In this document: positions 2,536-63,978 of the stretch, piece by piece
How the letters are laid out: each line of letters opens with the position of its first letter
Numbering within the stretch: position 1 is the first letter of the stretch
Notes under the pieces: model-generated
The model's input: the letters and a program-made list of their open reading frames with translations, nothing else
Told to the model about the DNA's origin: nothing
Databases searched by the model: none
From: Eumeta japonica
Taxonomy: Eukaryota > Arthropoda > Insecta > Lepidoptera > Psychidae
Reading direction: 5' to 3'
Assembly (NCBI GenBank): GCA_005406025.1
Contig: BGZK01000094.1
Coordinates: 310,001-374,000, forward strand
DNA: 64,000 nt
Translations under genes and position numbers: made by a program

Positions 2536-2709
2536 ATGCTATTCTATAGTCCATAAAGTACCTTATTGTACATACGAAATTGTGAAAGTAAGCCGAATGT
2601 CGCTCTATTCGGAATGATTGCCGCGATATCACCCACATGAAAAAGACGTTTTAGGTAATACGTCAGGCATTGCTATGTGTGTTATTAGCCCGAAATAGGG
2701 TATCCAACG

Positions 2710-3131
2710 ATTTTGACGTGACAAAAATTAGGTTGCGGCTGGGAGTCACTTAAAAAAGAGCTCGGTAACGTAACGATGAGTCACCGAACGAGAGGTATGC
2801 CTCTCTTAAATGATCGGTCTGCCGCGCGCGCAGCACTAGAGATATGCATAGCTTGCAAATGTAACAAGTTATTGTATGTATATTTGTATATAAATACGTA
2901 TGTGTGTAAAGGTAAAAATAAAATTTTGTTAATATGAAATTCAGTGCGATTCTTTGTATAAATTAATGTTTTAAATATAATTCTTTGTATAAATAAATGT
3001 TTTAAATTGTTACTATTATTTCATCCTTCTTCCTACTATACGAATGAATATTCACATTAAAATGATTTTACCATTCAAAGTCGTTGTCACGTAAAACTTT
3101 CGGTATACCGACCAGGCAACCAAATTTTTTT
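2710..3131 (+). mobile_element. Unidentified ~430-bp dispersed element, copy A
   Basis: This stretch is the reverse complement of 26234-26669 over its whole length, with scattered substitutions and small indels. It runs from TTTTGACGTGAC through a GC-rich part (GGTTGCGGCTGGGAGTCACT, then the GCCGCGCGC region) into an AT-rich part, and ends GGCAACCAAATTTTTTT. A roughly 30-bp tandem duplication (TTCTTTGTATAAAT...) lies near 2950-3005 in both copies. Near both ends there is a similar sequence in inverted orientation (ACGTGACAACG-like), best seen in copy B. No coding capacity is present. It is probably a non-autonomous DNA transposon, but I cannot name the family. Confidence 0.8.
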
Positions 3132-14170: not shown

Positions 14171-14472
14171 CCAGACTTGAAAGTAAGTACAATTAGATAG
14201 CGACAGTTAGGATCAATGAACAAGTGAATATTTTAAAATATTTTGGAACTTAAGTCCAAAGACTAGTATCATTATAGGCATGTTTAGTACTATTTGTACA
14301 TTTGTCATACATTTTGTACATTTTTTCTAAAATTGTTACAGGTTCTTTTTAATTAACAGATTAAGTAATGATCGTTAGTTATGTTTTTTTTAATTCAAAG
14401 CGAGTTATAATTGGAAATGACAATGAATGAGGATGACCTTTTACTGCTCCATACGTACTTATATAGACGTAC

Positions 14473-14473
<1 letters not shown>

Positions 14474-14513
<40 letters not shown>
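14474..14513. repeat. (TA)20 microsatellite flanked by a 13-bp direct repeat
   Basis: Twenty uninterrupted TA units. ATACGTACTTATA occurs at 14451-14463 and again at 14511-14523, on either side of the tract. The TA run therefore lies within a 60-bp duplication interval. Confidence 0.95.
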
Positions 14514-14514
<1 letters not shown>

Positions 14515-14523
14515 GTACTTATA

Positions 14524-15954
14524 CTTTTGAAACTATTGAGTTTCAAAGTCTCTTTAAATTATTTATTGACGTATTGAACAAAAATTTGACTAACTGTTTT
14601 AATAATATAACTATCAATAAAAAAATGAAGTACCTACTTTGTCTAAATTAGAGCATGAAACATTTCTTATTACCAAAGTATTTAAGTATATATTATCAAA
14701 TTCAAAACGTTTTTTACATATGATGTCATAAGCAAATGAAAATTCAAGTATTCCTATATCAATTTTTAGTGACGAACACAACAGCGACTTCTTTAATCGT
14801 TTACTAATATTATCAGTAGGTTATACGATCATTTATCATGTACAAAAACCTAAAAATTCATGTCTATGTAATTTATCTTCACGTATTTCTATATGTACAT
14901 TTATAGAATTTAACTGTTTTGTAAAATCAGTCGTAAATAAGGAGGGGGATCCTTTATCTCTAAAACTACTCTAAAAATACAAAGTACTAAGTTTTATTCA
15001 TTTTTTATAGGAGGCTCTAAACTAAAGTTTTGAGTTTCCAAATTCCCACTGGAAACGAAATATGCTCATGAAGGAAAAATGTATTGTTTACTTTTACCGA
15101 GGTTGAAGTCATTATAATACGGAACCTTCTCCACGTGAGTTTAACTGTTATTTTCCCGGTTTTTAATAAAATAAATATAGGCTTTAGTAATATAGTCTAT
15201 TCAGTCTTGTTATATAGAGGTAGACATAGTTGTAGTAAAACATCGACGCATAAATGGTATTTTATTATAAATCAATGAGCTCAATTTACAGAACTATCCA
15301 GTCATAAATAATTTAAACTTGTTAATTCAATTTTGTTGACTACAAGTATTACATAGGTGTTTAATAATTGCTAATCACTGAAATAATTTATATATAATTT
15401 TCACAGATTATTCTGGAAATATAAAATACAGAAATTATATCTTATTACCATGTTGTACCTTCTCCAATGATACTTGAGGAATCTCTAATCGAAACTATTG
15501 ACAAACACGTCATTTTGAATAAACCGTTCGATGACGTATAAATAACGACGCTAAAAAAATAACCCAAAGAATGGCTGCTCGTACAGCCAGATTGAGTCGT
15601 TCTCGGACGCGTTCAGAAAATGACAAAGTATCTGTAAATTCAATATGTTTAGCATCTAAAGTGTTTGAACAATCCTGGTCTATTACCCTAAAATATAGAG
15701 ATACGTAAATGTTCAATAAACAAATATGACGTATATTTGAATTTATTTAAATTAATAGGTTTGGTTTATTAAATTCACTTAAAAGACGTATGTTTTAAAT
15801 CAATTGTTTGTTTTCTTATTTTCCTAGTAGTCCCTATACTTAACCCGGTACTGAAACATTGCATCTATATCTACCTACCTAAGTAAAAGGTCTGACAAAA
15901 ATTTTTTTTTGTATACTGTATACTAATTTAAGACAAGTTTTCATAACATTTAAT
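14524..15954. other. AT-rich intergenic DNA, nothing identified
   Basis: No gene seen. The frames at 14427-14651 (driven by the TA tract), 15084-15278 and 15510-15716 carry no domain. Confidence 0.6.
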
Positions 15955-16960
15955 TATATTCTACATGTATGCCATTTTTATCAACAACTTATCATTTTTT
16001 AGGCAGTGATATAAGTAATCTCCTTGATGTAGAAATTTTGGAATTTCTAATCAAAAAACTGCGACAAGTAGTTTTGACAGGCGTCTCTTGATGCTAATCT
16101 AACACTACCTAAAGAATTCTGAAAAGATCGAAGCCAATGGAAATCTAAGGGTGCAAAATCAGAGTTATATGGTAGATGAATTAACACTTCCCAAGCAAAC
16201 TCTTTCAATATTTGCTGAGTGGCTAAATATGTGTGTGGTCTGGCGTCATCATGGTGACAACCCACACCCTTTCTGTTGATCGGCAGTTTTTTCTCCCCTT
16301 CTTGCTGTTGGCAGTAGAAATCCGAATTGGTAGCTTTCTCCAGCGGTAAAAGCTCATAATGAATAACGCCCTTCCAATTTCACCATATATATAGAGCATC
16401 AACTTAGTGCAAGTTAATCCGAGTTTCGCCATATAGTCTGTAACGCTTGATTGCCTTTTGTCCATGAACTTTTTAGCACGTTTTTGTCATAAGTAACATA
16501 TTTTTCTTCGCGAAAAGTCATTTTTTTAAACGATTTGATTTTATTACGTTTCGATAGAGAATTGCAAATGAATACACGATTCGTTAAATTTCTTTTAGTG
16601 AGCTCGTGTGGGACCCAAGTATCGAGCTTTCTTGTACATTCAGCATTTTTTAAGTGGGTCAAAACTGTTTTATGACCAATCCTCGGCTCTTCAGTTATGT
16701 CGTATGAGGTAATATATTGATTTTGCTGTACTTTTTCAAAAATGGCATTGAATTTATCCATAATAGGTGATCAGAGCAAGGTTCTTCTTTGACATCAAAA
16801 TTACCGGACTGAAAACGCTTGAACTACCTTTGTGTTACTCTTACGGACACTGCATTAGATTCATAAACGTCACAAATTTTTTTCGTGGCTTGTGTAGCAT
16901 TTTTCCCTTTTTTTGTAGTAAATTTCCAAAGTATCGAATTTTTACGTTAGATTCACTCAC
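15955..16960 (-). mobile_element. Decayed mariner (Tc1/mariner DD34D) transposase copy
   Basis: Read from 16960 down to about 15962, the - strand carries an almost full-length mariner transposase in broken frames. In order it shows an N-terminal helix-turn-helix part (KKGKNATQATKKICDVYES), FKRFQSGNFDVKEEP, then LDTWVPHELT. The first catalytic region follows (REEKYVTYD, where the family has GDEKW, so Asp is replaced by Glu near 16508). After that come HHDDARPH, which keeps the second Asp, and NSDFAPLDFHWLRSFQNSL, which keeps the third Asp 34 residues later. The C-terminal LSQFF segment ends the protein. An in-frame stop replaces Trp at 16824-16826. A one-base frameshift lies near 16380 and more shifts and stops lie near 15980-16030. 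I did not find convincing terminal inverted repeats. The copy is inactive and could not encode a working enzyme. Confidence 0.93.
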
Positions 16961-20770: not shown

Positions 20771-22988
20771 ATAAGAATACCCATTTCTGACCAGAATTTT
20801 TGTACTTATTAGAATATTTACTGTCGTTTACTCAGAAATCTAAGTCAGTAAAGGCTATTGCGTATTATAATGACACTGTGAACAAGTCATCATGTATGTA
20901 CATGATTCAAAAAATTTAATATACAAGTAATTGTAAAACATTAAAAAAATGCTATAACTGTTACCTTTTTAACTAATAGCAGTTCATATACAACCATCAA
21001 TATCGATGATACTCGACACTCATTATATAAAATGTATACGTGCACCCCTAATCTAATTAACTTTACACACTTATAAGTTATTTCAATAAAGATTTAACTA
21101 ACGACACGAAACTTGCGACACCAAATTATCTAATTTAGACTCCAAAACTACACAGGTTAATAAGTGAGCATACCGGCTTTGACACCGGTCAGGACACAAG
21201 TGATTGTAATAAAGTGTAACAATTTTTCAACCAAGTTAGAAAGTTGCTCCTTGGAACTATTGGCGGACCTCACAAAAGCGTTTTGGTTCACCTTTATTTC
21301 AACTTTCTATTTTTTTTTAATTTCACGTTGTACGACCGCGTCACGTGAATGCGGAAGCTCCAGAAAACTTTCTCTTTCAAACAATAAGTTGTTTTCGTTA
21401 CGAAACCTTCAAAAAAGCAATTTTTAAACCCTAAAAAATGAACAATTGATTATATTTTAACAATAGATGCTGTAACAATACTTAATGGGTTCACTTCGAG
21501 CGTATCTATTATTTTTTCGAACTAAGTTGTACCTAAAAATAAATAAATATGAGCTATACCTACATGTTGCAGTGCCACATCAACAGTCCTAATACTTAAA
21601 ATTATACTGATATAATCAATTTTTACTAAACTTGTATTTTTTCACAAAAGAGTATTTATTTTATCACCTAATATCGGTAGTTTTGAATGTCTAGACTAAT
21701 TTCATATAAACCTGTACGTAATTTATAGGTATAATTAATATTTATTAGATACGAGTGTACGCATTATCTGTTTTACGAAAGTGAATTTTATTGCAATTGA
21801 TTAAGAATTATATTTAAATAACAAAGTCTGTTGATTATTTTCACCTTCTGAAATTTTGTTCTAACCAGTGCATATTTAAATATCACACATTAACATTATA
21901 TAATATATTTTATAATTCTTGCCACGAATTCAATTATACTGAAATTGAATATCCTTTAGCAACAGACTTCAAAATGAAGATCTTTTTCTACGTAATGGCG
22001 TCTAGATATACGTAATAGTTTCAAAGGTCCTACAGAGATGGCAGCTCTGTCGTTAAAGAAAAAAAAATTGAATATCATTATTAAAAAACGTTGTTCCATT
22101 AGTATTTCTACGATTGTACCTGAATTAATTTGTTATATAAAGAACTGTCGAAACTTGTTATCAGATATTTTGTTAAATTACGTAGACATAATTTTATGTA
22201 CGTCAGAAAAGACTATGTTTTCTTGTTCAAGTTCAGGATTGTGTAAGATTTTTTATTTTCATTTTTCATTGTGTACGCCAAAATAACATTGAGAATAAAA
22301 TTTTTCCTACGCTTCAAAAAACTTTTTTTACTATTAATTTTCCATTTTCTATAATAAATATGTTGTTTGATAAAACAAACAATTGATATATAGTATTTGT
22401 TTTACCTAATTTACTCAATTATAAAACATTTTAATGGTTTAATGTAAGCATAATCTTCATACTATGTGTGAGAATAGTATATAGTAATATATACTATATA
22501 TAATAGTATAGTTTAGTTATTGTTAAATTTGACATTATTTACTTAATTTTCAATTTATTATAAAATATAGTTTTCTGAATCCATCCTAATACATAAGATT
22601 TATCATTTTTTGTGTTACTTGTAACGAAGGAATAGTCGTTATGTGTTTTATCTTGATATTTAGTAAATGTTTGATACCTTACCATTTTATGTTAATTCAC
22701 AAATCTGTACTTATATCCCTTCTATCTATCATTTTTAAGTAAAGGTTCATATATAAATAAATATTGTTTTCTTTTTTTAAATAAAACCACTTATAGTATT
22801 GTAATTTTTGTTTATTAGAATATCTGTTACATGTAATAAAATCTTTTGTACATATTTATAGGCCTTAGATAATTACCGACACAGTAGCTAATACAATTAC
22901 AAATAGACACAAAAATATATTGAAACAATAAAATTGTGAGGAAGTCGGATGCAGATGATGCCGGAAGCGCTGCCGTCGACAGGTGTCA
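20771..22988. other. AT-rich intergenic DNA, nothing identified
   Basis: Very AT-rich, including an AT-only palindromic stretch near 22475-22515. No gene or mobile element recognised. Confidence 0.6.
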
Positions 22989-23063
22989 CCTTCTGTTACG
23001 TATACTGAAGGTATACCGGAAAGAATCAGGCACTCAGGATACATTCAGTATACGTACAGAAGG
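22989..23063 (+). ncRNA. mir-iab-8: microRNA precursor mir-iab-8 (antisense partner of iab-4)
   Basis: The + strand folds into a stem-loop. CCTTCTG (22989-22995) pairs with CAGAAGG (23057-23063), and TACGTA (22997-23002) with its copy at 23051-23056. TACTGAA (23003-23009) pairs with TTCAGTA (23044-23050), and a few mismatches follow toward a loop at about 23019-23033. The 5p product would be 22996-23018 (begins TTACGTATACTGAAGG) and the 3p product 23036-23055 (begins AGGATACATTCAG). Both match the mature iab-8 sequences I know from Drosophila. In flies iab-8 microRNAs repress Ubx, abd-A and the cofactors homothorax and extradenticle in posterior segments, and the host RNA runs from near Abd-B toward abd-A. 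Conservation of the expression pattern here is inferred. Confidence 0.96.
22989..23063 (-). ncRNA. mir-iab-4: microRNA precursor mir-iab-4
   Basis: The complementary strand of the same hairpin is mir-iab-4. Its 5p arm is 23055 down to 23034 (begins ACGTATACTGAATG) and its 3p arm 23018 down to 22995 (begins CGGTATACCTTCAG). Both agree with the mature Drosophila sequences as I remember them. In flies iab-4 targets Ubx and abd-A, and forced expression transforms halteres toward wings. The locus lies between abd-A and Abd-B in the insects studied, so this hairpin fixes the genomic position of the window. A possible spliced host transcript lies just upstream on this strand (exon-like segments at 24209-24520 and 23303-23346), which would put the hairpin about 240 nt inside the following intron. 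Confidence 0.96.
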
Positions 23064-23302
23064 CGACGCGATTTTCGCCGAGCTGACAATCTCTTCGCAA
23101 CTCCTGGAACCCCACCTGCAACTCACATCGCAAATGTTAATACCTCGCTATACATAATAGATAAACAACGAAAAAAACTTTTATTTATAAGAAAATGAAT
23201 AAAGTTGTTCGGTATTGTCTATAAATATGTCATGTTCGGGACGATCAAACGTGTGATTCTCACTTCGTATCGTGCCTACGTGGCAATATCTTAAAAGCTT
23301 AC

Positions 23303-23346
23303 CGACCGAAATAACGTCGCCGCGCGCCCTCGCCCCGAACCTCCGC
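23303..23346 (-). other. Candidate 44-nt exon of the iab-4 host RNA
   Basis: On the - strand a tract ending CTGTTTTATTTTATAG meets a sharply GC-rich 44-nt segment (starts GCGGAGGTTCGGGG, ends TTTCGGTCG). GTAAGC follows at 23302-23297. The change in base composition coincides with both splice signals. Joined to the candidate upstream exon ending at 24209, the frame opened by ATG at 24269 stays open through all 44 nt. The iab-4 hairpin begins 240 nt further downstream. No transcript evidence is available here. Confidence 0.45.
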
Positions 23347-23829
23347 CTATAAAATAAAACAGTCGATTTACAACACCGTTGGGTCTTCAACCTGAAAGGG
23401 TAACACTGATAGCGCACATAAGTTTTGCTATCAAATGTTTGCGCTGAAATCTAGCGTCTAAAAATGGTTGCCTCTATGGGTCATTCAGAGTTACATATTA
23501 TAATATTTTACAATTCGTTTGGAAGACTAGTAAGATATAAAGGGCGTTTTAAATAAGTAAAACTCATTCTTCTAAAGTTAGCCAATGGGAATGCTGCGAA
23601 TTTGCGAAATGGTGATTGGCCGCTTGTCGCAAAAATAATATTCGCAAAACAGGGGCGGTGTCATCTGTGTCATTGCAAAACCGTCTTTTATTTGAGATTC
23701 AAACTTCTTTACATAAAAGTCAAGCCCGCAACACCTATTGTCTGAGAACTATTGTTAGACATAAAGGACAAATAACAAAGGCATTGTCGCTTTAAAACGC
23801 TCGCGGAAATCGGTAAAGAATTCTGTATA

Positions 23830-24010: not shown

Positions 24011-24208
24011 TAAAATGTAGACATGTGTACGTAGAGATGCAAAAGTGCGTTAAGTAAAGCCACCAAACTACCTTTTATAGCGGTCTAAGTCAAACGGTAT
24101 TACAGGAAAATTATAAAGTGCCGGCGAAGGGTTAAATCTCGAAAAAAGTTTGTTAAACAATTAATGAAGATTCAAAGAATCGCCGAGGACTAACACGTGC
24201 ATACTCAC

Positions 24209-24520
24209 CCGCTCTCGACGGCGGCGCGTCATGAGATGTGAACAGCTGACGCGGCCACGAAGTAAACATTGTGGTGTGGTGCGGAGGGCGGCGCCGAGGC
24301 CGCGACGTGCTCCCGGGCGCGGCGTCCCCGGGCGTCTGGCGGTCTCGTGCCCAGTGCCGGCTCCCGGCCGCATCGATTGCGGCGGCCGGGTGCGCGCGCT
24401 CCTCCCGCCGCCACCACGGCTGGAACACGCCACTTCCGCCCTCGCCGCCCGCCCTGTGCCGCCCGCCGCCACCGACGACCGCCCGCCCAACGCACCGCAC
24501 ATGAACCACACTGCCTGTCG
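24209..24520 (-). promoter_or_regulatory. CpG island, candidate promoter/first exon of iab-4 host
   Basis: This is one of the most GC-rich parts of the window, with many CpGs and abrupt edges. On the - strand it ends at 24209 with GAGAGCGG followed by GTGAGTAT, a strong 5' splice site (intron from 24208). A frame beginning ATG at 24269 in a good insect start context (CACAATG) gives MFTSWPRQLFTSHDAPPSRA up to the splice. The same frame is open further upstream to an ATG at 24509. Overlapping frames on both strands are also open because the DNA is so GC-rich, so coding status is unproven. The position 1.2 kb upstream of iab-4 suggests a pri-miRNA promoter and first exon. An enhancer or Polycomb-type CpG island is the main alternative. 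Confidence 0.45.
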
Positions 24521-24532
24521 CTAAAAGTTTGA

Positions 24533-26100
24533 TAATAACACCTATTAAGTATTACTTCGTGACATTTAATTCGAAAGTCTCAATAGTTATTACATATTAA
24601 TAAATCGAAATTTAAAACTTCAATATATGCAAAATGCAAATATTTAGAATTATAATTATAAAACCTTGTAATTTTTCTTCTTGTTTCAACAGAATTTTGA
24701 AATCCAATACGATTTGGTTTTCCATATTTGCATCGGAAATTAAAGGATTCATAAAGTTATAGTGGTAACATATATGTATACGCTGTATATATTCTACATT
24801 ATGCTATCGTATGTTATTAAAGATATTATCATCTCGATGTGGGTCACGTAGTTTGTTAATACAACATACGTGCCTTATTATGTTATTCGGTGTGCCTATC
24901 TATACCTATTCCTAAGTTCAAACGGGATGTAATTCAAATTCAAAATAACTTTTAAATTACAACATATCACTGGAAATAAGAAGGTAAGTTATAAGATTTT
25001 AAAAATATATCACTTGTTTGTGGGGCAGTTTATTTAATTAGCAGACTTGGGATTATAAATATCTTTGATTTTTTTTTATATTTGTACCTTTGACGAATAC
25101 ATTACTTTGATATTAGATACACATAATTATATAATTATTAGTTATGGTAAATAGGTAAAACGTTATTATACATTATTAATTTGCTCAGGCCTAGACAAAT
25201 AATAATACGCACAACATTATATCATTAAATATAGGATATAGGTATAATTTCTTTAGGAAAGGCAAAAATCAACACAACGATAAAAATAATTTTAAAAAAT
25301 AAAAATTCAATTAGTGTTATAGTCGTTTATATAACTGAATTATCTTATTAAATGACATTAAAAATATTGGTTTTATTTTCAATTTTTTGAACACGTTACA
25401 TGCTTGCTAAGACATTCGATATTTACGAAATTCGTATAACGGAAGAAATCTCAAGAAGAAATACCTACTACATAAAAGTATTTTTAATTTGATTTGATGC
25501 AGAGTAAAAGTTGAGCATAAGAAACTTAAATTGTGTAATTCTTTTAAAGTTTTCGACTTTCTATCTAGAAATAAACGATTCTTTTTGACAAGTGCTTATT
25601 TAAAAAAAAACAGTTTTAAGGATTTTCATGTGTCGCTTTTTTTATTTCTATCTTTTGGCATTGCACAGCTGCTCAAAGCAGGGTCTTGGACAAGCGAGAG
25701 ACACATCTCATCAGTTTCGAATGTTTCAGGTTTTACAATACATGTCGTTTTATCAATCAATAATAGACAAAGAAAACTAATTTCACGTTCTTCTGTACCT
25801 ATTTTTATTAATATATAATCTTTAGAAGAACTAATGTAACCATATTATAATTTAAAACACAAGAAATAGCTGTTTGTCTGTATATTTATTTCAATCGACA
25901 TTCCTATCGAAATCCTGCCACATAATACTTACCAAAAAAAAATCGGAAGGTCTCCGCATCTATGGCTTTGAACCATGAACGTAATATCATAATTATTCAA
26001 ATGTTTACTACAAATACTGGTATCACACCATTCTTTGTCAATTTGAAACATATCTAAAATCCAAGTCAAATCAAATACATGTTAGCCACATGTCTCTAAA
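24533..26100. other. AT-rich intergenic DNA, nothing identified
   Basis: No gene. A good acceptor-like sequence on the + strand (TTTTTCTTCTTGTTTCAACAG, ending at 24692) has no convincing partner. The frame 25531-25818 has no domain. Confidence 0.55.
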
Positions 26101-26233: not shown

Positions 26234-26669
26234 AAAAAAAATTTGGTTGCCTGTAAAGTCGGTATACGGGCGAAAGTTTTACGTGACAACGACTTTGAAT
26301 GGTAAAATCATTTTAATGTGAATATTCATTCGTATAGTAGGAAGAAGGATGAAATAATAGTAACAATTTAAAACATTTATTTATACAAAGAATTATATTT
26401 AAAACATTAATTTATACAAAGAATCTCGCACTGAATTTCATATTAACAAAATTTTATTTTTACCTTTACACATACATGTATTTATATACAAATATGTACA
26501 TTTGCAAGCTATGCACTAATTCTCTAGTGCTGCGCGCGGCAGACCGATCATAGTTGAGTGGGAGAGACGCAAGGCTTTCTCTCGTTCGGTGACTCATCGT
26601 TACGTTACCGAGCGTTACACTAAGTGACTCCCAGCCGCAACCTAATTTAAGACGTTGTCACGTCAAAAT
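26234..26669 (-). mobile_element. Unidentified ~430-bp dispersed element, copy B (inverted)
   Basis: This is the reverse complement of copy A at 2710-3131. On the + strand it runs from ATTTGGTTGCCTG to CACGTCAAAAT. Near the ends, GTTTTACGTGACAACGACTT (26275-26294) and the complement of GACGTTGTCACGTCAAAA (26651-26668) share ACGTGACAACG in inverted orientation, which suggests subterminal inverted repeats of a DNA transposon. Flanks differ from those of copy A at both sides, so the boundaries are well defined. No clear target-site duplication was found. Confidence 0.8.
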
Positions 26670-26883
26670 TGTCAGTTCAAAAACTTAAACCACTGAAAGT
26701 TATTGATCGAGTGCTTTGAAATTTTCATACAACGTTGTACTCAATTATTTATTAGCATTTACCTCCGACTTCATCCGCCTCTTTGTACTATTGAATCGAA
26801 CTATATAGATATACAATTTCTGTCATTAATTGAAAACTACGCTATACTCGAATAACATAAGGTATATTTTATAGTATTCACTC

Positions 26884-34500: not shown

Positions 34501-36189
34501 TTAATTCTAATCTAAACATTTACAATAATGTATTTTAAACATTGATTTTTTCTTCCATGACATACGGGCCTACATTAAATAACACTCACCAAATCAATTA
34601 GAATAACATGGAAATTGTATGAAAAACAGATCATGAAAAAAATTGCAATTTTCAACGCCATCTCAGACTGAAAATGAAAGAAATCCGCGAAGAGAAAACA
34701 ACCATTAGGATTACCAAAGTCAGAAAAATACACTAGAATGACCATCGAAGAATAAAGCAACAACATTTACTTAACTTCGATTTAAAATTTAATGCGACAA
34801 AATAAAGTTAAACGCACCAATTACGTGTGGGAGGACTTCAGTGTCTGTAAAACAAGACATGAGCTATTACAACGGGAAACAAGAAGAGTGGACCATATTA
34901 GTGCATAAACTCCTTGTTAACGTGACCCACTATATATCATTGATATATTTTAAAAAGTAGAAATGGAGAAGGCTACTGATGATATACAACTTTTATAAAA
35001 GAAAACAGAAAGTCGTACACTAGCGACGAAATGGAGAAGAATGAAACTGAAAAAGAAAGATTTATCAGTCCGTGTGATATTTATTGATCTATTGTGATTC
35101 ACGATCTATTCCGACTTCAGTTTCTGACTAAAGCTGCACGAATACCGACTGGTGATATACACACATAATTCTTAACCATGACTAAAACCCTTCACACCTC
35201 TCGCATATTTACACTTCTTTCGGTCCTTTCGTTTTATCGAGACTTATCCCTTTTAGTCACTGCGACTAAGTGAAAGTCGAGCGGATGATTATTATAAAAT
35301 TTGGCAAATATATATTGGAAGTCACTCAAATGTGATAGGACACAGAGTACGAATTTTTCATTCAAAATCTCTTTTTATTTTTCTATTACTGTTTTTCGTA
35401 CTTCACTTTATTTCTATGAACATCTTTGATAGGTAGCCCTTTTTGGTTCGACCTCAGCTTCAAGGTGAAGTTGAAATGATACGTATACATCACATTTTTA
35501 CCAGTAAGCAGTTACTTACTTGCTCAAGCTGTGAGTCAGAATTGGTGTCTTACTCCACCCCTCCTCCTCCATGTGTCCTAATCCCTCCATCAAATATGCT
35601 ATGTCCTCCCAAAAGGCCGGCAACGCGAACCGATGATTCCTTTCGGATTTCGAGTGTAAATGGGCGGCGGTGACCGTTTCTCTTTGATGGCTCGCATATA
35701 CTCGTTTGGTTTTCGAATATTCTATAAAAATACATCTACATACCTTTATCCACCCTTAATTTTCTTAGAGTATTTAATTGCAAAATACGTTACTTAGATT
35801 CTTGAGTACCCTTTTTTATATTCTTTGTACATAGTATCTAAGAGGGTATAAAAAACAACTCTGTAATATAATTAGAGACTATTTCCTTATTTTATGCCTA
35901 ATGACTGTAACTAAAACAATTTAGGATTTTTAAACGCATTTGCTAAAGGTGAATGTGAGAACAGATAAAAACGTCAATTTTTATTGTACATAATATAAAA
36001 AAAATTTTGCATTGTTTATGTGAGTTATAAATATATGGAAAGTATGGGATGAAAGTACCCAGTCCGAAATTTTGCTTTGTAGATTAAAAAAAAGTATAGT
36101 ATCAGTTTTGGGTCGATCATACAGAGCGTCTATTAACAACTAACACTTCGTTGCGGTAGTACCTAACGACAAGAATAACTTTCTAACGG
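31591..36189. other. Intergenic DNA, no gene supported
   Basis: Mostly AT-rich. A balanced-composition stretch at 32054-32280 carries an open - strand frame of 73 codons and is bounded on the + strand by an acceptor-like TTTTTATCTCCATTACAG (ending at 32280). I see no domain in it and leave it uncalled. A further GC-richer part at 35540-35700 is uninformative. Confidence 0.5.
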
Positions 36190-36645
36190 CTCATAAGAGC
36201 GACGCACGCACGGCCCGAAATAACGTGGACCCCGTCGCGGTCCTTTCAAGTCGGCTTATTTCTGTCGTAGCGTTGTTGGGCATCGCGCGTTGCGTAATGT
36301 GTTTAATCGCCTGGTATATTCCAGGGATCGTCGGCGATCGCGCCCCGCGTGCGCGCACGTCCCGCGGATTTGCGCGCCTGCCAAATACCCCAGCTGCGGG
36401 CGGACACGGCCGCCGCGCCGTGCCCCCTGAATACTGATACTGCCGATATCCGACATTGTTTCGTTTATTTTTTTTTTTGTTTCACTTTCGTCGAGAAACT
36501 GGACGACCGATGGCCAGACATGAGACCTATTGAATTTTTCATGGCGATCTCTATTGGAATTTCTTATGAGAGCCAAACGCTTAATGCCAATTTATATGTC
36601 GGGCTACGCGAGACGCCGCCGCCCGTGGAACTACAGATGCGGTAA
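36190..36645. promoter_or_regulatory. CpG-rich island, candidate regulatory element
   Basis: Long GC-rich stretch including GATCGTCGGCGATCGCGCCC and GCGGGCGGACACGGCCGCCG. Frames on both strands stay open only because the DNA is CpG-rich, and none shows a domain. It is one of the two largest islands in the window, with the next one only 0.5 kb away. It is likely a regulatory island or an exon/promoter of a non-coding transcript. Confidence 0.4.
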
Positions 36646-37129
36646 TTACGTTCGAGATTAACGTTAGACTATAAATTCCGTTGGATTCCGAAATAACATT
36701 TAAATTTGAATTTAATTTAAAATTTACACATTAAAACACAAATATGCAATGGAGAAGATCAATAAATTATATTTAATGTATGTTACGGTTATAATGTATA
36801 ATAGTTTATCTAAGAGTGTTTAATTGCCTATTTTAGACGTTAATAAATTACACAAAAAAAATAAAGCATTTAGTGATATTGTAATACATAGTCATGAACT
36901 AAAATGAACTGTTATTTTTTTTACTTTCATATTGATACAAAAAGTTGCCTGATAAGACTAACCTTAACCTAACCTTGCAGAGCAAACTCATGAGCTAGCA
37001 GTCGACAATCGCTATACAAAGTCACGTTAAGATCCAAAATGACTCGATGAAAAGCAACTGAGAACAGCAATTAATAGAATATCTCGAATGGCATTATTGC
37101 CGTACGATGAAATACGGGGCATAACGACA

Positions 37130-38035
37130 CAACCCAAGGATTTACCCGCGCGACCGACGTCGTCTACATCCTGTTCTTTCCCTCCGACGTTTCGCTAAAT
37201 CGAGAGAAAGAGATAACCGTCCCCTTTATTCCGTACGAAAGCAGTTTAAATAGCAAAGTGGATCGTTTTACGATAGCGTTGCAGATTTTTTTAGCGAACA
37301 AAACGAATTGATTGGCGATTTATTCAAATTCGAAGGTAAAAAACTACGAGCGCACTATGCACGGGTGTCGGGCTCTGCGCACGTGAGCCAGTGAGCCCGA
37401 GTACAATAAATCGATTTAACTTTAAAATTTAACAAAGTACCGAATTTATATCGCGGTGCCCACGGGGCGCGCTCGCCGCCAGCGTCCGGGCATCCGAGTA
37501 ATTTACTCGCAGCAAAATAAATAAATTAAGCGATCATTGCAACCTTGTACTTTTTTATAATTCACGCATGCGAGAGTGGCGCTCCGTGCGCATTGAACGA
37601 AAATAAAACCTAAGCCCTCGCCGACGATAGAAGTGCCCCGGTTGTGTTTTTGAATCGTGTTTTTTAGGAGAAAAAATGGCCGAGATAGGGATCCGAATTT
37701 ACAGACACGGCGGAATGTGAGCGCGCGGGCGCCCGGCCGCGAGGCGCATTCGATAAGCCGTCGTGCAGCTCTCATCGTGGGTAGGTTTTCGATCCGGCGC
37801 GCCCGCGCGAGCGCTCCGCTCTTCCGCGCGGGCGAGCCGATGTAGGACGTGCAAATAAACATGGTATTTTTATCGCCGCAAACCTTTATATAGTTGCGGT
37901 CGATTTCTCCTCTTTATCTGCTCGCAGCGGTGTTTGCTTTATCTCGAATAAAAAGGGAGGACAGCGCCGTGTGTCCGGGAAGTTTACAGCGCCCGATAGC
38001 GCCGCGCCGTGCGCGGCGATAGACTTTGCCTCGTA
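37130..38035. promoter_or_regulatory. Largest CpG-rich island of the window
   Basis: About 0.9 kb of GC- and CpG-rich DNA in several sub-blocks (37130-37210, 37350-37500, 37560-37850, 37900-38035). It contains an AAAATGGCCGA site (37673-37683) one base from the YY1/Pho consensus and self-complementary runs such as GGCGCGCCCGCGCGAGCGCT. Overlapping short frames (37503-37862 -, 37657-37845 +) have no recognisable domain. The size and isolation make it a strong candidate for a Hox regulatory element, though a non-coding promoter cannot be excluded. Confidence 0.4.
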
Positions 38036-39009
38036 CTTGTGAATACTTCTCTCATTGTATATATCAGTTAGTAGTTTGACACAAGTATTTGGGGATCTTT
38101 TGAAAATGTCAATTTCCTACTTTGCAAATCAATATCTGGGAAACTGGAATAAAACGTACGTCACAGTGACGTAATTATTAGAAAAATACACTGTTCTGAC
38201 TATTATCGGAGTTAAACCATACGTAATTGAAATTAAAACCCAGGAATCAATAATAGGATAAGCTTACGCCTATTTCCCGGAAAGATAGGCAGAGACTATA
38301 GAATTCCACATAGTACGATCTTTGCATATCTCTCTTGCCTCTCTGGCATCCATTAATCATTTTCATGCAAGCTCGTCGGTTTCGGGTGCTTAAAATTTTT
38401 CAGCATGCCAATATTAAAAAAAGGCCTGTTATGTACATCTGGAAACAAATATACGTAAACATTAAGTCTAGGACCATAATATTTGTATTTAGACCACAGA
38501 GCGCAGTGATTTCAACTATTATCGGTACCTACCTAATATTTATAGTCAAATCATTTTTTTTATATTACTATAAAATCCAAATTTTATCACATAACCAATA
38601 AGGAAAGCAAAGTAACCTAACCAAATCTTTTCCTAAATTTATTCAATTCAAATATTCAATTACAGTTACCTGCTGTATATTATTTGGTTATGATATGAGA
38701 GTACATCTACCAATATAATGCAAATTCACAAAATCTAGCGGATGCGCCATCTAGACTCACAAACGTTAGGACTATATTTAGTATTTTTTCCATGAATACG
38801 TGGACATAGTTTTTATGTGACGAATATTTAGACGTCATTTATGATACGAGGCTCCAGTCAGACATCGATCACAGTAAAAAATTAATAAAAATGTTAATAT
38901 CCTGCATTGTCCTAAAAATATACCAAAAATAATGATAAATACAGCTACAAAGAATGGCGATAAACACGTCAACTTAGACGTACTTAATTTTTTCGAGTCT
39001 TGATAAGAG
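38036..39009. other. Intergenic DNA with a CTCF-like site
   Basis: No gene. TAGATGGCGC on the - strand at 38744-38753 matches the insect CTCF core. The same ten bases occur on the + strand at 58468-58477. Confidence 0.5.
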
Positions 39010-39190: not shown

Positions 39191-40404
39191 ACTGATTTGA
39201 CGGCAATAAATTTTAATAGAGCAAGATTTACGGGCGGTTGGCGGGGACGTTTACAACTCTCAAACATAAAAAAGCCCTGTTTGTTCGTGTCCCCTTTGCA
39301 TATCGATGAAACACGATTGGTAGTACTTTACATTTACGAGGACCTTTGGAAATTAAGAATTGTCGAGATTTGCTTATTGCAATAACTTAATAATAAATAT
39401 GTACCAATTACGCGTAACGAAATTAGAGGCACGTTGGTAAATATAAGCGTAGAGACGGTATCAAATATTCGTGCGCATATTCGCCCAAGAAAATTTCCTA
39501 TTATGATTCCTTCCCTAAAGTCAACTACGTACATGCAACACTTGTATAGCGATTGTCTGTCGCCCGAGCCTTAGGGCTGGCCATGCAGTCTAATGCTGGG
39601 TTATCGATAGAAACATGAAATATGCAATATAAAAATATGATTCTTAATACTTGTTTAAGAAACATATTTTTATGATAATTTATATTTTTTGTTATCTGAA
39701 CACATAGAAACTCATTCCAAATATACATCGTATTTTATTAATTTTTTTTATGTAAATAGTTTTTTATTATGAGATAAAAAATGTAATTTAAACTATTGAA
39801 ATAACTTATAATTTGATCAATCAGCGGCCACTTCTGTAGCTATTAAATCGATCCTTTTGTGAATATTCTAGTAACGTAATATGAATAACGATTGCTAAGT
39901 AAGCCGAGTTCAAGTAAGTGTATTTAAGGTGCTCACCATCCAGATTGCGTTTTGTCCACAAAACCGAAACGAGCTTATTTGAATGTATTATCATTGTCGT
40001 CGTGCTCACCTTCATACAGATACAGTTGAAAAAGATGAAATCCGGATATGTCGAAAAGGACCATATAAAATTATTGGCTTATACTGAAATATTATACATC
40101 TGGATTAAATAGGAAGAAGATACGACGTACGATAACAGAAAGTTTGTGGAATCACAATTAAAATCGTTTAAAACTGTACAAGCTTTTTTCCTCCGGTTAC
40201 ATGAATAAACAGGAAATTGAAACTTATTGTTCTGGTATTAAGGTCACTATTTCCAGAGCGTTGTGTGTGATGTAGCACATTTAATACACACAATTCACCT
40301 AAAGCTTCCATTTCAACAGCTAACTAAACACAATTTAAATAGATCCATAAATATTTACGTCGGGTTCGGAAAGTGCTAAGATAGAGATATAAAAATAGAT
40401 CGAT
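39191..40404. other. Intergenic DNA, nothing identified
   Basis: No gene. The frames at 39197-39385, 39334-39534, 39525-39728 and 39821-40112 overlap each other and have no domain. Confidence 0.55.
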
Positions 40405-45024: not shown

Positions 45025-45072
45025 GTATTAAAAAACAGTCAAATGGAAATCCACTTGACTGTTTTTTAATAC
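45025..45072. repeat. 22-bp inverted repeat with one mismatch, 4-nt loop
   Basis: The arms 45025-45046 and 45051-45072 (core TTAAAAAACAGTCAA with its complement) flank an AAAT loop. A single mismatched position lies near the loop. It is a compact fold-back hairpin like those at 1328 and 50347. Confidence 0.9.
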
Positions 45073-48423: not shown

Positions 48424-50346
48424 TTAGTACATATGTATTCATATGTAATTTTTTCTCGTGTTTCGTCTATTAAAAGTAAATAACATATCTCAGGGAAAAA
48501 GGCAGTAATATTATAACATTCAATTTTAAATTATTTTGGACTTTTTGTTGTACTATTACGACTTCCTTAACTTCTTAATTTTATTAATTCTTCCACTTAA
48601 ATTTAAGCAACTGATGAGTGCTTTTTTTGGCATAGTTCAATAGTTACTTTTTGAATTTTCATAAAATACACAGTTTTAAAATATAGCTCAATAATTCAAC
48701 ATTAAAGATTTTTTTAATTATAATTTAAATTTAATCAAATTCACAGTGTCTCTTTCTTGCAATTAATTATCAACTAATATCTGTAGCTATTAAACTATGC
48801 CAAATAAACCCTTATCAGTTGTTTAAATTTAATGAAAAAACAACGGGACTTATGACATTAATTGCTGAGAAAGTCGTAATAAAACGACGAAACCTCCAAC
48901 AGAATTAAATATTAGATTTTAAGTTTTAGTGCTACCGTCTTTTCTTCTGAAATAAATAAATTGCAGTTAATAAAAATATTTATAATGTTTGTCAAAGTCA
49001 ATATAATTCATTTTGAATTAATATTTATCAAATTATTAATAATAAATCTTAATAAGAATGTGTGGTTGCTTTGACGAGCACGTGAGCGCAATGATAAATC
49101 GTTAAACAATATTAATACAATCTCCTTCCAACTGCCGCATTATATGAACTTCACATCATTTCGTCGAATCATCGATTCAGGAAAGGCTTTTTATTCAAGC
49201 GTACCGTCTGCATTACAATCGTATCTTCTGCATTCGTAACTTGAACAAATACTGTGCGGATAAGTACCCACCTCACTATTACTTATTGTTTTAGAAAATT
49301 ATGTTTATTTAATTCTAATTGAATTGCAGTCATATTAATGTAAGACGTTGAATTGTTTATCTCGTTATTACTATTAATTTTAGAAACTCACGTCTATTTT
49401 ACAGAAGCTTAGGCAGAAATCAAGTCACCACGTCTTCTTTGACTTTGAACATTATTTTCAAACTTCGCTGTTCCTTCTCGGCCTTTACACCGTTTCTTTC
49501 GATTATTATTAAGTTTTATACAGAGGGAGCCTCTCTATGTTCTAGGAAAGAAATATGTTTTATATTTGTCACTATATATTTTTGTAATCACAATTCCAAA
49601 ATAATCTTGTAATTATAAGAAACAAAACAATAATACGAAATTAAGAAATCAAACGAAGAAATGAAATAATGTTATTACGCGTATTTCATTCACTGATCTC
49701 ATTTCCATTAATCCATAGTGAAACCTAACTAAGGGAGAAACTATTCTTTCATAATATTTTAATATCTACAAAGTTATCAATATGTAATTCTGTCAGAAAA
49801 CAATAATACCTTCCGTAAGTAATAATTTTGAAAAATTTCCTGAACTAAATGGTTCCGAAATTTATATGAGAAATATTGTTTCCCCCAATTCCAAATATTT
49901 TTCAAAAATTATGAAGACACAAAAAATACCGCCACAAAGAAACAACGGTTCTAGTCAACAATAACAACCATTAAAGAGTCCCTGACAAAAGTAAAAAATA
50001 CAAACATCTAATAGGACAAAGGCCCATTCAACCCTTTCGTCAAAATAGGTCCGTTTAAGTTATTGCCCATAAATTGACTAGTAGGTGTACTTCCTTATTG
50101 CACCATAAATTGTACAAGTGCCATCCGTTATTGCAAGTTGAGAAGCACCTACATTTCTTAAAATGAATTTGATATTGACATTTGAATTTTAAATTAAAAG
50201 TACACGCGTCATTATTTTTTATTTCTATAAAACTACATCTCATTATAAATTTTACATAATTCTTAAGAAAGAAAGCTACTATATAATTGTAATTGTAAAA
50301 AACACATAAATTAAATGTTTTTCAGAATCTTGCATTACAACAGTTA
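48424..50346. other. AT-rich intergenic DNA, nothing identified
   Basis: No gene, mobile element or array recognised. Confidence 0.6.
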
Positions 50347-50387
50347 ACACACTTGCCTCGTTACGTAACGTAACGAGGCAAGTGTGT
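50347..50387. repeat. Perfect 19-bp inverted repeat with 3-nt loop
   Basis: The arms 50347-50365 (ACACACTTGCCTCGTTACG) and 50369-50387 are exact reverse complements around TAA. TTAA lies just outside the structure on both sides (50344-50347 and 50390-50393). It is GC-richer than its surroundings, so it is not a by-product of AT bias. Confidence 0.93.
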
Positions 50388-50814
50388 ACTTAAAATTTTT
50401 CATGTTAATGAAATAAAATTTGTAAGATACCTTTTTTTACCGAATTAAAATAGTTCTGAAGCATTTAAATAAAAAAATACAATTGAATGTGTTTAAGTAC
50501 TTAATCAATTTATATGTTTGTAGTTAAAGGTATTATTTTGAATAATGTAATAAAATATAATCTATAGAAATATTACAAATATGAAAATGAGTTTTTTTAT
50601 TAAGTCTCTTTTAAATTTATAAATGGCAACCGAAGTGAAATTTAGTAGGGATAGAATAGATATATAGTTTATGTACATACAAGACATATTGATATATATA
50701 TATAATTTGGTTATTCTTAACCATTGTTGTCTCCAAATTTAGCCGTATAAACATTAATAAATTCCTTCATCTTTTGTATCGATACGACTTCTAATTTATA
50801 CTTAATTACTGTTT

Positions 50815-62659: not shown

Positions 62660-63015
62660 ATCATAAGTGAAACAGCCAAAATTAAATTTTGATAAGAAAA
62701 CCAAATTGTAATCTGTCTCTTCACTATATCTCCCTAATCCAAAAAAAAAACTTTAATCTATCGTCATTTAATAATATTCCTGTTATGGAGGCGGAAACTA
62801 AGAGGTAAAACTAATACCATTTTAAACGTTTTCAGGATGTTGAATAAAACTGTAGAAATTCAAGCAAAACAATAAAAATAGACTAAAGCTTGTATGGAAA
62901 CAAAGAAATAATGGTAGATATTATAAATCAATATGTAAAATATAATAACACAAAAATCTACGCCATGGCATTTTAAAATATTACTGAACTCGATATCTCG
63001 ATAGGTAAGTCAGAT
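62660..63015. repeat. Direct repeat unit 1 of an end-of-window pair
   Basis: Its left block (62703-62766, TTGTAATCTGTCTCTTCACT...) and right block (about 62946-63015, AAAAATCTACGCCATGGCAT...) are almost identical to 63683-63746 and about 63909-63978. The DNA between the blocks is not alignable by eye. The left offset is 980 bp and the right offset 963 bp. Confidence 0.88.
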
Positions 63016-63632
63016 TAAACGTAAAGAATAGGATAGCTAAGTTGTTTATTTACAAAAAAAAACGACATGTATGAGAATTAGAAATAAAAATAAGAAGTCA
63101 ACAAAATATATCAATTTTCAAAAATTTTTTACTAAGCCAGTTCATAACGAACTTTAGTATATAAAAATGTAACTTAAAAAAAGAAATCAGCTCAGAAAAA
63201 CCCGCTCATACGTAGTGTGTGAGATGTCTTGAAACATAAGTAGAAATAAGAAACGGTATGCGCATTTAATAATTAATCACCATATTTAGAATCAACTTAC
63301 GAAACTGTTAAATCTTTTGAAATATTGTAAAAAATTAAGAACAATTATCAATCGTATCTGATTGTCATGATTTAGTAAATCAATGAAGTGCATATTATGA
63401 ATATATTAGTACAATAGTTACAAAATGATTTTCCTAAAAACTGCCTACTAATTTCAATAACTAATATCAATAAATATAGAGATGTAAGACAGTGAATAGC
63501 ACCTAGGTTCTCTTACCTGAAAAGGTCGTTAATTTTATTAATAATCGATACATTGTGTTATGGTAGTTTCCTTAAACGAAATATTCATTATTAATATCAT
63601 TTTCAAATAATCATAAATCTGTTCCGGTATAC
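63016..63632. other. AT-rich spacer between the two repeat units
   Basis: No gene or element identified. Confidence 0.6.
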
Positions 63633-63978
63633 TCTGTAAAAAATCATAAGTTAAAAGCCAAAATTGAATTTAGATAAAAAAAAAATTGTAATCTGTCTCT
63701 TCACTATATCTCCCTAATCCAAAAAAAAAACTTTAATCTATCGTCACATGTACGATTCCTGTCTACGGGCGACTGCGAGAAAACTATACATATAATATTT
63801 AGATAAAACTGCGATTTCTGTCTGTTGAAACGTTATTTAGATAATTCTAAGAATTTAACTAAGTAAATAGATTTAGACTAAGTTAAAATTATAGCATATG
63901 AAAATAAATAACACAAAAATCTACGCCATGGCATTTTAAAATATTACTGAACTCGATATCTCGATAGGAAGTCAGAGT
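63633..63978. repeat. Direct repeat unit 2 of an end-of-window pair
   Basis: The second copy of the unit at 62660-63015, with both end blocks conserved and the middle replaced by unrelated sequence. Conserved ends with a variable middle suggest related but different members of a non-autonomous transposon family, both in the same orientation. Confidence 0.88.

Follow-up and report, generated by a model that had tools for sequence, protein, structure and literature searches.

A 75-nt hairpin in the 64,000-nucleotide stretch of Eumeta japonica DNA analysed here, hereafter the window, is almost certainly an ordinary arthropod copy of the known Hox microRNA gene iab-4/iab-8. Its sequence, strands, fold and family were observed directly. 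This is a deeply conserved gene, and both the locus and the use of its two strands are already published. The gene is well studied: either DNA strand of its one hairpin can be read, and the products fine-tune genes that specify the identity of body segments. No tested feature departs from the known kind: the arms, the fold, the full model length and the layout of products on both strands are the same here.

Family and mature arms

The window was searched with all 4227 Rfam families, and RF00725 (mir-iab-4) is the only one to reach its gathering score, which is 73 bits. It matches positions 22990-23062 of the + strand over the whole model (1-71 of 71), with 89.7 bits and an E value of 1.9e-19, whole-window E values referring to the 64-kb search. 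The earlier note had named the hairpin mir-iab-4/mir-iab-8 from the letters alone, and this match bears it out. Departures from the consensus are confined to letters of the outer stem and to the loop, which has two extra bases. A second candidate at the hairpin, mir-4716, scores 18.4 bits against a cut-off of 76 and was dismissed.

Each of the four mature arms has a single exact match in the 64 kb, both strands considered, at the coordinates that had been claimed for them (Table 1). The queries were written out after the window had been read, and we take their letters to be those of the mature Drosophila iab-8 and iab-4 sequences; the independent check is provided by the Rfam consensus, identical to both + strand arms. 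The two 5p arms have in common a 12-nt core, ACGUAUACUGAA, beginning at position 3 of iab-8-5p and at position 1 of iab-4-5p. Their seeds (UACGUAU and CGUAUAC, respectively) are therefore shifted by two bases, distinct but related. Stretches matching iab-8-5p in viral contigs and iab-8-3p in bacterial and archaeal genome contigs numbered 0, as expected for an arthropod gene.

Table 1 Features of the iab-4/iab-8 locus in the window
Feature	Position	Strand	Basis
Bidirectional hairpin iab-4/iab-8	22989..23063	both	Rfam RF00725 match and folds
Basal stem extension, expected pri-miRNA lower stem	22983..23069	both	five more pairs on +, four on -
miR-iab-8-5p	22996..23018	+	exact 23-nt match to query taken as Drosophila mature sequence; identical to Rfam consensus
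miR-iab-8-3p	23036..23055	+	exact 20-nt match to query; identical to Rfam consensus
miR-iab-4-5p	23034..23055	-	exact 22-nt match to query
miR-iab-4-3p	22995..23018	-	exact 24-nt match to query

Folding of the two strands

The hairpin folds at -33.7 kcal/mol on the + strand and -35.0 kcal/mol on the - strand (z of -7.87 and -7.61, respectively). None of 200 shuffles was as stable on either strand, in agreement with the hairpin first recognised from the letters; combined with the full-length RF00725 match, this lies far beyond chance. With ten bases added per side (22979-23073), the stem lengthens and the energies reach -44.2 (+) and -45.0 (-) kcal/mol.

Energy alone cannot single out the locus, as the family match does. 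In a scan of the window for stable hairpins, made over non-overlapping 90-base places at a step of 10 with the strands counted apart, the iab hairpin comes 9th (-) and 10th (+). The GC content of seven of the eight places above it is 0.72-0.81; the eighth, 1311-1400 on the + strand, is an AT-rich near-perfect palindrome.

As read from the predicted pairing, the first internal mismatch is G.A on the + strand and U.C on the - strand. Near the loop the pairing also differs slightly by strand, because G-U pairs form on the - strand. It had been argued that the arm mismatches differ by strand as known for this locus, so that both strands can give distinct mature products: the slight near-loop difference stands, but the rest is a weak argument, since complementary strands carry complementary mismatches and the G.A/U.C difference thus gives no independent support. 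Duplex folds of the short arm ends, a rough predictor, place the iab-8 ends near equality (-3.5 for the 5' end of 5p, -3.8 for that of 3p), whereas for iab-4 they would favour the 3p arm (-5.5 against -1.5).

Against RF00725, the - strand reaches 40.8 bits (E of 1.4e-07 in a narrow search of 22800-23250), under the cut-off of 73. That only the + strand exceeds it would suit a real locus that, in this species, gives rise to microRNA on a single strand. We regard this as unlikely: the folds of the two strands are nearly equal, none of the four mature arms is damaged, and fly and beetle make use of both strands, with bidirectional transcription of the locus reported for the fly and Tribolium (PMC7523956). 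The lower - strand score may only reflect the iab-8 orientation of the model consensus.

Genomic surroundings

Apart from the hairpin, the window appears to be a long stretch of noncoding DNA that contains remnants of transposons. No tRNA was found in it, and no intact protein gene was recognised among the 10 of 18 open reading frames of at least 110 amino acids that were given to Pfam. In six frames of the 64 kb, neither the homeodomain word W[FY][QKS]N[RK]R nor YP[WF]M occurs, although an intron-split word would escape such a scan. The description of the hairpin as the only clearly functional gene in the window thus holds with respect to Rfam families above cut-off, tRNAs and recognised coding genes, the last to the extent of the Pfam coverage.

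As iab-8 lies on the + strand, Abd-B is predicted to the left of the window and abd-A to its right. In the silkworm, mir-iab-4 is placed within the abd-A/Abd-B interval, in a region mapped as free of predicted protein genes (PMC5231277). As to the silkworm mir-2835, no second microRNA family lies above its cut-off in our window, though Rfam may not include this one.

A displaced or pseudogene copy, lying outside the abd-A/Abd-B interval, would account for 64 kb without a Hox coding word. PMC4862073 reports two exceptions to the usual placement: Metaseiulus, whose hairpin is on a Dfd scaffold and so lends this alternative some precedent, and Tetranychus, which has lost abd-A and in which no hairpin was found. 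The perfect conservation of the arms speaks against such a copy, as does the surrounding AT-rich sequence, in which no intact gene was recognised and which is comparable in this to the mapped silkworm region (PMC5231277), and we hold it to be highly improbable.

The window as a whole has a GC content of 0.321 and a CpG observed/expected ratio of 1.38. Around the hairpin (22900-23149) GC rises to 0.43-0.51, compared with 0.15-0.29 in the 100-base windows leftward (22400-22949); rightward it falls to 0.25-0.39, then climbs to 0.53-0.56 at 23250-23399. A constrained element might show such a rise, though 23250-23399 is GC-rich as well. Two further segments, 36001-36700 and 37101-38200, are GC-rich in their AT-rich setting, with CpG observed/expected of 1.57-1.89. 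At 24101-24600, GC is 0.64-0.66 in two 400-base windows and CpG observed/expected is 1.33-1.35, not above that of the window. All three segments are possible regulatory elements. The one at 24.1-24.6 kb could be the start of a short dedicated - strand iab-4 primary transcript, 1-1.5 kb upstream of the hairpin, which would place iab-4 under a control separate from that of the long iab-8 transcript; this is improbable, the more so because CpG is not enriched there. Neither the base composition of the window, nor its over-represented 7-mers, nor the sequence TTAGGTTAGG, with 2 matches against 0.07 expected, identified the organism decisively.

Transposon remains and inverted repeats

A decayed mariner transposase lies at 16047-16770 on the - strand. 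Its piece 16047-16376 matched a mariner-derived SETMAR domain (best E of 1.3e-12) and the Mos1 transposase among solved structures; Pfam Transposase_1, the sole match among the ten reading frames given to Pfam, is weak here (20.8 against a cut-off of 24 bits). The piece 16417-16770, which Pfam did not match, is presumably mariner-like too.

An element of about 400 bp is present in two copies, 2699-3109 and 26271-26670, in opposite orientation; its terminal inverted repeats are imperfect. The copies lie 23 kb apart, on either side of the microRNA hairpin. At 62697-63968, blocks of 70 and 73 nt are repeated with 97 and 93% identity at spacings of 980 and 963 bases, which suggests that about 970 bases were duplicated in tandem.

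The search for inverted repeats returned 18 raw hits, whereas each of three Markov-1 sequences gave 0. Once simple repeats had been filtered, five distinct places were listed. Three are short near-perfect inverted repeats (1326-1387, 45025-45072 and 50346-50388) with loops of 3-4 bases and 19-28 matched pairs; the others are a TA repeat (14467-14520) and a place rich in AT (39629-39673). Sub-cut-off RNA family matches at 14463-14525 fall within the TA repeat and were dismissed.

These repeats and the transposon remains are all that would recommend a chance or transposon-derived inverted repeat as the source of the hairpin; the family-specific, full-length RF00725 match refutes it, and the imperfect, microRNA-like pairing and the shuffles on either strand leave it a vanishingly small probability.

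Proposed function

For the iab-4/iab-8 gene recognised here, we infer transcription, processing, targets and genomic neighbours by comparison, and by orthology it most likely works as in the fly. Counterparts of the Drosophila iab-8 and iab-4 ncRNAs would be the predicted host transcripts: a long noncoding + strand transcript of the iab-8 type, starting towards Abd-B, and a long noncoding - strand transcript of the iab-4 type would carry the same hairpin, each exposing it to Drosha and Dicer. Given the two-base seed shift, the target sets of iab-8-5p and iab-4-5p should overlap yet differ. Ubx, abd-A and Hox cofactors would be the main targets, through their 3'UTRs.

PMC3290615 describes the hairpin in all arthropods sequenced by then, with nearly invariant arms and with both strands expressed in the fly. 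In the fly, reported targets of miR-iab-8 are Ubx, abd-A, hth and exd, and abd-A is reported to be mildly affected when the microRNA alone is deleted (PMC8629391). The host iab-8 RNA is reported to repress abd-A as well, most likely through transcriptional interference (PMC3359974, PMC8629391). When these microRNAs are lost in Drosophila, only subtle effects on Hox patterning are reported (PMC3290615), and the targeting of Hox genes may therefore be a minor step; loss of miR-iab-8 is also reported to impair fertility in Drosophila (PMC3290615, PMC3359974).

Altogether, the hairpin is a reliable landmark: it marks the window as arthropod DNA and most likely as the noncoding abd-A/Abd-B interval of the Hox cluster, and it also gives the likely orientation of that interval.
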